Assembly: GCA_026018925.1 (NCBI GenBank)
Contig: JAKSZU010000020.1
Location: forward strand, 43,493,102 to 43,557,101
Origin: Tupaia tana
Taxonomy: Eukaryota > Chordata > Mammalia > Scandentia > Tupaiidae
Length of the DNA: 64,000 nt
Direction of reading: 5' to 3'
The position numbers and the translations under genes were made by a program. Of the stretch, positions 1,747 through 47,900 are shown in pieces (within the stretch, counting starts at the first letter, position 1; every line of letters starts with the position of its first letter). Below the pieces are notes generated by a model, which had not been told where the DNA came from, did not search any database, and saw only the letters and a list, made by a program, of their open reading frames with translations.

Positions 1747-2158
1747 CTTACATATACAGAATTCAGGCAAAGTCTAAATAAATTTAATAAGTGAAGTCAA
1801 AATAAAATTATATGCAAACCAAATCACAAAACCAGTGGAATTCAACTGAACAGTGACGGCGTGTGACAGTGACGTTGTGTGGAAACCCAATCAGAGCTCT
1901 TCGCGAGCACATGCGATAGCAGGTTCTCAGGGGTCTCCACACCCAGGCGAGCAGGTGCTGGCTAATGGCCCAGCTTCTCCCCGCCGCTCCGTGAATCCCC
2001 CCACAGGCAGGCAGGCAGCTCCTTGGCCTCTGCACGGTGCCAGGCATCCCCTGTGTCAGGTCTACCAATGATTTCACTGTTAGCCCCGTAGGACGAAAAT
2101 AACACAACTCGGCACCATCTCAGAAACAGAAAGCTGGGCTTAAAAATTGAGAAGACGT
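1747..2158. other. Unique sequence, no gene seen
   Basis: No recognised repeat or conserved reading frame. The open frames in both directions here lack any familiar motif. Confidence 0.5.
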
Positions 2159-2418
2159 GGGACCAGCAGTTGGCGTAATAGCTATGTCGCTAGACTCCCA
2201 CGTAGTCGACCGTAGTTCAAGTCCCGGACCTGGTGGCTTAAACTCACACTGGGCACGTGTGTGTGCGTGTCCAAGATCCCGAGAGGAGAATGGAGGAGAA
2301 GGGATTGCAGCGTGGCATCCCCCCTGGGGGGTGATTTCTCACTTTTTGTCTCTCTGTCTCTCTCTTTCTGGCCAGCACACACGCCCTGTAGCAAAAACTT
2401 CTCAAAAAAAAAAAAAAA
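2159..2418 (+). mobile_element. SINE-A abutting the 27-bp array
   Basis: GGGACCAGCAGTTGGCGTAA head, B box AGTTCAAGTCC, intact palindrome, and a 15-base poly-A tail ending just before the tandem array. No clear TSD was found. Confidence 0.9.
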
Positions 2419-2421
2419 TCG

Positions 2422-2691
2422 AAAGGAGGGGCCACGTGGTGTAATGATAAAGGAGGGGCCACGTGGTGTAATGATAAAGGAGGGGCCACGTGGTGTAATG
2501 ATAAAGGAGGGGCCACGTGGTGTAATGATAAAGGAGGGGCCACGTGGTGTAATGATAAAGGAGGGGCCACGTGGTGTAATGATAAAGGAGGGGCCACGTG
2601 GTGTAATGATAAAGGAGGGGCCACGTGGTGTAATGATAAAGGAGGGGCCACGTGGTGTAATGATAAAGGAGGGGCCACGTGGTGTAATGAT
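2422..2691. repeat. Perfect 10 x 27-bp tandem array derived from a SINE head
   Basis: The unit (GGGGCCACGTGGTGTAATGA plus TAAAGGA) is repeated ten times without a mismatch and runs straight into the SINE-C body at 2692. Each unit holds the A-box-like TGGTGTAATGA and one CACGTG E-box. Because 27 is a multiple of three, long spurious open frames result on both strands. Confidence 0.95.
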
Positions 2692-2862
2692 AAAGGTGAT
2701 ATTTTACAAGGCAATCCCACATGGAAAGGTTCCCAGTTCAAGCCTGGAGACCTCGCTGAGCACCCTGGGCAAACTGAAGGCCTGGGTGGATCAGTGTCAG
2801 GGCCTTGTCGGGGTACTGTCTGTCTTTCTCTGTGTGTGTGTCTCTCTCTTGTTCATGGGATA
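2665..2862 (+). mobile_element. SINE-C whose 5' head is the last array unit
   Basis: Body matches the copy at 40423: AATCCCACATGGAAAGGTTC, then AGTTCAAGCCTGG (B box), then GATCAGTGTCAGGGCCTTGT and CGGGGTACTGTCTGTC. It is the source of the tandem unit on its left. Confidence 0.75.
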
Positions 2863-2869
2863 CATACAT

Positions 2870-2872
<3 letters not shown>

Positions 2873-2908
<36 letters not shown>
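2873..2908. repeat. (TG)n microsatellite
   Basis: About 18 TG dinucleotides, lying between SINE-C and the 7SL-derived element. Confidence 0.95.
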
Positions 2909-2909
<1 letters not shown>

Positions 2910-2914
2910 CAGAA

Positions 2915-3004
2915 GGCCGGGCATGGTGGTGTGTGGCTATAGTTTCAGCTACTTTAGAGGCTGAAGCAGGAGGATCATGACAGAGAGACGGTTCTTTAAA
3001 AAAA
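2915..3004 (+). mobile_element. Short 7SL-derived (Alu-like) element
   Basis: GGCCGGGCATGGTGGTGTGT, then TTTCAGCTACTTTAGAGGCT and GAAGCAGGAGGATCA match the 5' domain of Alu/7SL RNA. It then jumps to GACAGAGAGACGGTTCTTTA, matching the Alu 3' end, followed by an A-rich tail. An internal deletion leaves about 90 bp. Confidence 0.75.
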
Positions 3005-4893: not shown

Positions 4894-5230
4894 AGAGTTC
4901 CTCAGTTTAACAAGTGGTAGGTGGAGGAAAGTCCAGGCAGAGGACGTGCCTCTCACAGTACCCCACGCCAGAGCAAGCTGGCCCTGAACCACTGCCCCGC
5001 TCCTGCCTGTGGGCTGCTGGCACTGAAGTGGGCTGCACAGTGTGGGGGGGGGGGGGAGGGGAAGGAAAAAAGAAAAAAGAAACCAGGAAAGAGTTGTCAG
5101 GATAGATGGTGAACTTTGCATTTGCCACTAGTTTGGGTTTGGGGTGTGTGTGCACGTCTCTGTGTGTAAAGCTCTGTTCCAGAGGGTGGGAGCACAGAGA
5201 TAATTTTTGCTTTTCAAAATGAAGACTTTG

Positions 5231-8556: not shown

Positions 8557-9246
8557 TTCACGACATATTTGGTGGTGTTCTCCACACACAATGAAGCAGG
8601 TTTACTGCTTTGGAGAGGTGGTAAAGATGGGGACGGGGCTAAGAAACGCCACTCCACTTCCAAGAGCTAATTCAAACACGCCCTCAGAGGCCCCGTTCCC
8701 ACAGGTGACCTCGAGTCTCCGTCTTCTCCACCTGGCCACTTCCTCATCTACCACGTATTTGTGCACGGGTCTCACCCCTCTTCACACCATCTCCCCTCCA
8801 GCCCACTGTGTCGCTCCGAAGCCTGGCAGTGCCCTGCACACTCGGCTCTCAGTACTAAGTGGCTGCTCCCGAGGTCCGAGAACAGTCTTCGACGCTCCGC
8901 TGAGATGGTGGCTCAGTGGAAGTCACTGAGTCCTCTCCCCTCGCGGCCTCACCCCCTCTCCCCTCCTCACTGCTGTCTCAAACCCGCAGAACAAGAGACA
9001 TTAAAACCGAGGCTCGGAGTCCAACCCCCCGGAGAGAACTGGGAAGTGACAGGCCGGCCGCCTCCCCAGACGCAGGCAGGACCGGATGGGAGGAGAGCGA
9101 GCGCCCAGTCCTACCTGGTGAGGTGAGGGCAGGGCTGGGCCCGAGGAGCTCTGCCGGCTTCTGGGAAAGGGCAACAGGTGCAGGGCAGAGAGAGGCAGGG
9201 AGCAGGGGCTTCTCTTCGGAGCCTGGCCCATCAGCCACTCGCGCCT
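8557..9246. other. GC-rich unique sequence left of the minisatellite
   Basis: CpG content rises towards 9000-9240 (several CCGG and GCGC sites). Open frames continue into the tandem repeat but show no known domain. I cannot tell whether this is a CpG island of a gene outside the window. Confidence 0.4.
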
Positions 9247-10187
9247 CCGCCCTCCTCTCCCCCGGCCTCCTCTCCCCTCCGCCCTCCTCTCCCCTGCGGC
9301 CTCCTCTCTGCGGCCTCCTCTCCCCTGCGGCCTCCTCTCCCCTGCCCTCTCGCCCTCCGCCCTCCTCTCCCCTCCGCCCTCCTCTCCCCTGCGGCCTCTC
9401 TCCCCTCCGCCCTCCTCTCCCCTGCCCTCCTCTCCCCTGCGGCCTCCTCTCCCTCCGCCCTCCTCTCCCCTCCGCCCTCCTCTCCCCTCCGCCCTCCTCT
9501 CCCCTCCTCTCCCCTGCGGCCTCCTCTCCCCTCCGCCCTCCTCTCCCCTGCGGCCTCCTCTCCCCTGCGGCCTCCTCTCCCCTGCGGCCTCCTCTCCCCT
9601 GCGGCCTCCTCTCCCCTCCGCCCTCCTCTCCCCTCCGCCCTCCTCTCCCCTCCGCCCTCCTCTCCCCTGCGGCCTCCTCTCCCCTGCGGCCTCCTCTCCC
9701 CTCCGCCCTCCTCTCCCCTCCGCCCTCCTCTCCCCTGCGGCCTCCTCTCCCCTCCGCCCTCCTCTCCCCTGCGGCCTCCTCTCCCCTGCGGCCTCCTCTC
9801 CCCTCCGCCCTCCTCTCCCCTGCGGCCTCCTCTCCCCTCCGCCCTCCTCTCCCCTCCGCCCTCCTCTCCCCTCCGCCCTCCTCTCCCCTGCGGCCTCCTC
9901 TCCCCTCCGCCCTCCTCTCCCCTCCGCCCTCCTCTCCCCTCCGCCCTCCTCTCCCCTCCGCCCTCCTCTCCCCTGCGGCCTCCTCTCCCCTCCGCCCTCC
10001 TCTCCCCTCCGCCCTCCTCTCCCCTCCGCCCTCCTCTCCCCTCCGCCCTCCTCTCCCCTCCGCCCTCCTCTCCCCTCCGCCCTCCTCTCCCCTCCGCCCT
10101 CCTCTCCCCTCCACCCTCCTCTCCCCTGCGGCCTCCTCTCCCCTCCGCCCTCCTCTCCCCTCCGCCCTCCTCTCCCCTCCGCCCTGC
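9247..10187. repeat. 17-bp GC-rich minisatellite, about 55 copies
   Basis: Two interchangeable 17-mers, CCTCCTCTCCCCTCCGC and CCTCCTCTCCCCTGCGG, alternate in an irregular order. The left end (9247-9520) has shortened units; from about 9520 rightwards the array is essentially perfect. One strand is almost all C/T, the other G/A, and each unit carries one CpG. The 17-bp period keeps several frames open on both strands, yielding artefactual Pro/Leu/Ser-rich or Arg/Gly/Glu-rich proteins. Confidence 0.97.
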
Positions 10188-13570: not shown

Positions 13571-14037
13571 GGGAACCAGCAGTTAGCGTAATGGCTATGT
13601 CGCTGGACTCCCACGTAGTCGACCGTGGTTCGAGTCCCGGACCTGGTGGCTTAAACTCACGCCGGGCGCGTGTGCGTGCATGCCCAAGATCCCGAGAGGA
13701 GAATGGAGGAGAAGGGATTGCGGCGTGGTCATCCCCCCTGGGAGGTGATTTCCTGCTTTCTATCTCTCTGTCTCTCTCTGTCTGTCTGGCGAGCGCACGT
13801 GCCCTATAGCAAAAACCTCTCCAAAAAAAGAAAAAAAAAAAAAAAAAATTCATGCCGGGCACGTGTGCGTGCGTGCCCAAGATCCCAAGAGGAGAATGGA
13901 GGAGAAGGGATTGCGGCATGACCATGCCCCCTGGGGGGTGATTTCTCGCTTTCTGTCTCTATGTCTCTTTCTGTCTGTCTGGCGAGTGCACACGCCCTAT
14001 AGCGAAAAACTCTCAAAAAAAAAAAAAAAAAAAAAAA
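13571..14037 (+). mobile_element. SINE-A head-to-tail dimer in one 14-bp TSD
   Basis: A full SINE-A (13571-13847, with A-rich tail) is followed by a second that starts at TTCATGCCGGGCACGTGTGC and lacks the tRNA head; it ends in about 28 A. AAAAGTTAGAGCTG lies at 13557-13570 and again at 14038-14051, with no TSD at the joint. Confidence 0.93.
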
Positions 14038-14051
14038 AAAAGTTAGAGCTG

Positions 14052-25430: not shown

Positions 25431-25869
25431 AAAACAAAGGTTAATGTACAGACAGAATGCCGACTGACACTCCCCCCAGCCTCCTGCAGGCTAATGATCA
25501 CTGCCCCCCTAGGATGCCCTGCCCGGGAGCTCTGGAAGGCCCAGGTCCTCAGATGCCCTGCCCGGGAGCTCTGGAAGGCCCAGGTCCTCAGATGCCCTGC
25601 CCGGGAGCTCTGGAAGGCCCTCTGGGTGTGTGTATGCTTCCATCCCCACTTTCTGACTGCTCTGTGCTTGGTCATCACATTGCAACTTCCAGTGTTTTAC
25701 CTTTCATCTCAGACCTCGTCAACAAAATAGTTTCCATGGTGCCTGGGGAAGAGAACAGAATAGAATTGTTTCACTCTTTTAACCTATACTCCAAAATGCA
25801 GTGCTCTCTGTGGCCTTGCTGTAAAATTAAGAAGAATATATGAAAAGGCTTGTGGGCCACAAAAAGAAG
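25431..25869. other. Unique sequence around a 39-bp repeat
   Basis: No gene recognised. The 39-bp tandem repeat sits at 25514-25619. Confidence 0.4.
25514..25619. repeat. 39-bp tandem repeat, 2.7 copies
   Basis: The unit begins ATGCCCTGCCCGGGAGCTCT and ends CCCAGGTCCTCAG; copies start at 25514, 25553 and 25592 and are identical. CCCGGG and GAGCTC palindromes recur in each. Confidence 0.97.

Positions 25870-47864: not shown

Positions 47865-47900
<36 letters not shown>

Follow-up and report, generated by a model that had tools for sequence, protein, structure and literature searches.

A perfect ten-copy minisatellite of probable SINE-head origin in Tupaia tana

Organization of the locus

Within a 64-kb window of the Tupaia tana genome (the whole stretch of DNA analysed, 64,000 nucleotides, contig positions 43493102-43557101), a minisatellite array occupies positions 2422..2696 of the plus strand, approximately 1.37 Mb from an end of its contig (44,869,466 bases). 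The array is a maximal perfect run of period 27, spanning 275 bp (10 x 27 + 5) and consisting of ten units of AAAGGAGGGGCCACGTGGTGTAATGAT followed by AAAGG, with 100% identity and no indels. TRF on the window returned the same repeat (27 bp, 10.2 copies, 100%), and it was recovered once more in the junction search reported below. Each unit is composed of AAAGGA joined to GGGGCCACGTGGTGTAATGAT, with 14 of 27 bases being G or C (counted by eye). All ten units carry one CACGTG, starting at 2433, 2460 and so on to 2676 in steps of 27 (2433..2681 in all), and each of these sites sits within the palindrome CCACGTGG. Both claims of a preliminary description, ten exact copies of 27 bp and one CACGTG in every unit, thus hold without exception. 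The AAAGG at the right edge (2692..2696, plus strand) pairs with the AAAGG at 2422 as a 5-bp direct repeat. At the level of the unit, AAAGG stands at both edges, 27 bp apart, once at the 5' edge of the SINE described next and once inside its head.

Short interspersed elements flank the array. Directly upstream lies a copy of an abundant tRNA-type SINE, SINE-A, with its A-tail (2158..2418, plus strand, ends approximate), for which dozens of relatives in the window were among the BLAST matches listed. Counting this copy, SINE-A covers 91 merged intervals of the window, or 15,399 bp (~24%); tRNA-derived Tu SINEs are given as 21% of the tree shrew genome in PMC4408798. Elsewhere in the window (13653-14041), most of a SINE-A copy forms a 193-bp tandem duplication of 2.0 copies that are 88% identical. 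Downstream, the last array unit continues into the body of a second element, SINE-C, a label of the preliminary description that we retain. This body (2697..2873, plus strand) is present once, as had been claimed there, with the promoter head alone amplified tenfold; judged from a 29-locus alignment and a hand-read consensus, it has lost about 24 bp relative to its family. It is followed by a (GT)n stretch at the 3' end of the element (2874..2908, plus strand, TRF) and by a putative 7SL-derived SINE fragment (2914..2996, plus strand) matching the Rfam models mir-1268 at 32.5 bits and Metazoa_SRP at 21.4 bits, both below the gathering score. A 7SL-like SINE was also recognised by eye at locus L086, discussed below. 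Local alignment of the flanks revealed no target-site duplication for SINE-C.

No tRNA genes were found in the 64-kb window, and a Pfam scan of 10 of its 468 stop-to-stop open reading frames (at least 60 aa) gave no hits, a scan that short exons would escape. Positions 4921-5042 resemble an H/ACA snoRNA of the SNORA42/SNORA80 family (E = 1.6e-11; 66.4 bits, with the gathering score at 70), either a gene or a decayed copy. Other simple repeats of the window are a C/T-rich minisatellite of 942 bp at 9244-10185 (17 bp x 56.6, 90% identical), a perfect tandem repeat at 25513-25620 (39 bp x 2.8) and an uninterrupted run of 34 G at 47866-47899.

Source of the unit and age of the expansion

A similarity search with the last unit and the body returned at least 47 matches; of its 793 candidates, 40 were scored. 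The body core was common to all 29 other loci aligned, which had been picked by body similarity, and the head was absent or unrecognisable by eye in several of them (L002, L008, L029, L031). On the alignments, the body from 2697 onward is clearly SINE-C. The family head GTGGTGCAGTGGTAAAATG occurs at 1,120 places of the genome at no more than one mismatch, against 2 for the reversed control; the first 30 places listed carry one exact head each and the majority of them start with GGGGCCAGAYR. With the SINE starting at GGGGCC, the array unit comprises 21-26 nt of SINE head preceded by 1-6 nt of upstream sequence. The unit had been described as the first 27 nt of SINE-C; derivation from the 5' head of a tRNA-type SINE stands, while 1-6 nt of it lie outside the element's start.

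Assignment of the head itself to SINE-C is less certain than that of the body. Alignment of the window head gives 15.0 with a typed majority head of SINE-C and a slightly higher 17.5 with the head of a related SINE-A/B group (L084, L075 type). When individual copies were compared, the top score for 71 SINE-C heads was 13.5, while five of 252 SINE-A/B places scored at least 14; the two at 20.0 (L052, L053) had been fetched by that same head, those at 17.5, 15.5 and 15.5 had not. The comparison set consisted of places found via body words in 67 other loci and in the array-masked window, and a different A-box word had been used to select thirty of the SINE-C loci, so that these are biased away from the array unit. 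Since the head scores higher against SINE-A/B than against SINE-C, the exact source of the unit is uncertain: it is possible that it represents a diverged SINE-C head, or that a head from a related SINE was joined to the SINE-C body in a chimeric element. The choice between the two leaves the mechanism proposed below unchanged. We also considered whether the A box had been damaged by a 3-bp loss. A gap falls inside the A box in one alignment, and against the TGGTGCAGTGG variant a gap placed upstream scores higher (228.5 vs 225), so no broken A box is claimed.

An unrelated satellite as the source of the unit, which the preliminary description had named as grounds for discarding its reading, was rejected. 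At up to 3 mismatches the 25-bp head has 13 places in the genome, of which the array accounts for 10; no satellite was found and none of the 3 others is arrayed. By eye, two of these three resemble SINE-A heads and the third is no SINE.

Expansion or homogenisation appears recent, in line with the earlier suggestion of recent expansion or gene conversion. Compared with the hand-read SINE-C consensus, the window copy shows 19 differences in 142 aligned columns (13.4%), so that around 36 differences would be expected across 270 bp of array at the age of the copy, a rough figure given a consensus read by eye; none was seen. The SINE insertion therefore long predates the expansion or homogenisation of the array. 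A search of the 2.948-Gb genome (1,198 contigs) with the 39-bp tandem junction, allowing up to 3 mismatches, returned nine matches, all nine of them inside this array, which makes it a single-locus repeat. For comparison, we examined 62 other loci, mostly chosen for SINE-C content and totalling 188,967 bases with 1,163 N, and found eight tandem repeats at period 10-100 and entropy of at least 1.5, none exceeding 2.2 copies. A perfect ten-copy array is thus not commonplace among them.

Proposed origin and alternative readings

In our view the array is, with a probability of roughly 0.85, a single-locus minisatellite that grew out of an old tRNA-type SINE copy, one whose body is SINE-C and whose 5' head supplied the unit. 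We propose that slippage during replication, or unequal exchange, between the two AAAGG words produced the first duplication, along the lines of the Haber and Louis model, in which initiation takes place at short direct repeats (as presented in PMC3389668 and PMC6947457). The AAAGG at the right edge may be no more than an incomplete final unit of the array, which leaves this seed for slippage unproven. Later slippage or gene conversion would then have recently expanded and homogenised the array. The CCACGTGG palindrome possibly helped, as neighbouring units can pair through it on a single strand: predicted folding of single-stranded DNA pairs neighbouring units in this way on both strands, at -43 and -41 kcal/mol, with z scores of -8.2 and -11.2 for the two strands relative to shuffles. 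Such hairpins between neighbouring units could favour slippage. Ten perfect copies that include a promoter head may be explained simply by the edge repeats having happened to lie there. The array was probably not selected for any function and carries its E-boxes and A boxes as passengers.

A broader reading would have A-box heads recurrently seeding tandem arrays in this genome, some of them candidate binding platforms (ten bHLH sites in this array, and in a second one four exact A boxes that TFIIIC could bind). We took up the proposal of the preliminary description to look for other SINE-C head arrays and found one. The census retrieved places in the genome with two exact copies of CAGTGGTAAAA within 6-36 bp; resting on one exact pattern, which leaves tandem GGGGCCAGA starts uncovered and would miss the window's own array, it gives a lower bound. 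Three of its five matches belong to one array (L086-L088, C420:149148985-149149097, minus strand) with 4.0 copies of a 34-bp unit, 93% identical, after which a SINE body follows. This array holds four A boxes, all exact to the consensus, and no B box within 2 mismatches. The remaining two matches are a short AT-rich repeat (L084) and a 25-bp repeat of 2.1 copies with no visible SINE-C (L085). The unit of L086-L088 is unlike that of the window, pointing to an independent amplification event. As a general account of both arrays, recurrent seeding of binding platforms is nevertheless unlikely.

The ten CACGTG sites raise a second possibility, namely that the array recruits bHLH factors of the MYC/MAX and USF type and acts as an enhancer or a sink. 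Ten canonical sites within 275 bp, each set in the same palindrome, are what such an array might look like, and there is a precedent in the human hTERT gene, where many repeats of the intron 2 minisatellite VNTR2-1st likewise contain CACGTG (PMC2915984). The hTERT repeat, however, lies in a gene with a MYC-responsive promoter, whereas the array at 2422-2696 has neither a gene nor a function associated with it (no gene was identified among the ten open reading frames scanned), and the reporter work described in PMC2915984 concerns another VNTR. Within the SINE-C sample the site is private to the window copy: at the head position it is absent from the 29 aligned loci (by eye) and from 30 exact-head loci, and in the 50 nt preceding the body word it is found at none of the 71 SINE-C places, with CACGTG occurring elsewhere nearby in 3 of 59 loci (L028, L031, L069). 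Two SINE-A/B heads, judged by eye from the four of 252 places containing the word, carry a single CACGTG at the matching head position with no array (L052 at 1501-1525, and one in the window at ~24.3 kb), showing that the site can recur at this position. CACGTG is moreover frequent locally, with 34 further occurrences in the 64-kb window, 21 of them in SINE-A, against ~5.6 expected in all under a dinucleotide model. The sites in the array would have been copied passively along with the unit, and every one contains a CpG that may be methylated. A role in bHLH binding, which the preliminary description had also raised, is very unlikely.

An assembly artefact, in which collapse or polishing generated the copy number or the identity, is likewise very unlikely. 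N runs occur in 7 of the 62 other loci and may be gaps. Arrays exceeding short-read length are often mis-sized, and this one may be among them. The window, by contrast, is free of N, at least two units are needed for any array to assemble, and head, body and flanks are coherent. Perfect identity of the units could still be in part a product of assembly.

Finally, we considered the promoter motifs. Ten A-box-like sequences TGGTGTAATGA and a single downstream match to the B box, AGTTCAAGCCT (2735..2745, plus strand), were found as previously described, each with one mismatch to the respective consensus given in PMC10137851 (TRGYNNARBGG and GGTTCRANYCY). Only the last A box (2680..2690, plus strand) has a customary spacing to the B box, 44 bp, and the other nine lie 71-287 bp away; PMC10137851 gives spacings of 32-34 or 41-43 bp for human tRNA genes and 52 bp for 7SL. 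A-box-like sites with at most one mismatch are common, with 127 on the plus strand of the window including those of the array. TATTTT (2700..2705, plus strand), a Pol III terminator-like sequence, separates the last A box from the B box. In the B2 tests reported in PMC8466645, TTTT stopped 65% and TATTT 42% of transcription, and TMT>3 (M = C or A) is termed a strong terminator there. Four T are found at the same position in L010 and L019 (by eye), so the feature is not unique to the window copy. A transcript directed by the last A box is predicted to begin at ~2669, within the last unit, and would then run into TATTTT. The element accordingly departs from the arrangement of a type 2 Pol III promoter, with boxes ~30-52 bp apart and no terminator between them; it is unlikely that the array provides extra Pol III starts, and doubtful that this copy yields a complete SINE transcript. 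The earlier suggestion of an altered Pol III start choice, and with it the idea that the extra heads shift or strengthen the SINE's Pol III starts, can scarcely be upheld with nine of ten A boxes so distant from the B box and a terminator-like sequence before it.

Relation to known SINE-derived repeats

A minisatellite originating from a SINE has ample precedent. In the human genome, 7,276 of 31,472 minisatellites are reported as derived from transposable elements, 2,663 of them from Alu, which is the most numerous source once LTR12 and L1PA are set aside (PMC3389668). In the same survey, 300 of the 7,276 are flanked by direct repeats of 5-20 bp. The array in Tupaia tana falls within the size limits used there (two or more copies of a unit longer than 20 bp, with identity no lower than 95% and GC no lower than 40%), and its unit aligns with tRNA-type SINE heads and is followed by a SINE-C body. 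It shares with the human cases a SINE-derived unit and a single locus; the AAAGG at its edges may be a short direct repeat of the kind flanking those 300, or may come from the array's partial unit. It differs in that the Alu minisatellites of PMC3389668 average ~2.3-2.4 copies, against ten perfect copies here, and in that its source is a tRNA-type SINE and its unit takes in the 5' edge and the A box. Similarly, the minisatellites from human Alu and mouse B1 listed in PMC6947457 expanded within a SINE, in their case from other SINEs and other units.

Squamate satellites built from SINE segments offer a further parallel (PMC10702118, whose authors had made no specific check of mammals). As in those satellites, the terminal unit runs on into the remainder of the SINE, in this case the SINE-C body. 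The major squamate satellites, in contrast, are found at many loci with up to 1000 units, while the array described here has ten units and a junction confined, at up to 3 mismatches, to one mammalian locus. Genomes in which such loci are few and short are likewise on record in PMC10702118. Our literature search for SINEs with a duplicated A box found nothing closer.

SINE-derived minisatellites are already well described, and this array looks like an additional example rather than a new regulatory device. Within that class, ten perfect copies and the inclusion of a promoter head are striking. The source copy, its single-head relatives, the edge repeats and a second case can all be seen in one genome, providing a clean example of the passage from SINE to minisatellite. 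If polymorphic, the array would be a handy marker, and if bHLH factors bind it, it would offer a natural copy-number series for E-box dosage.
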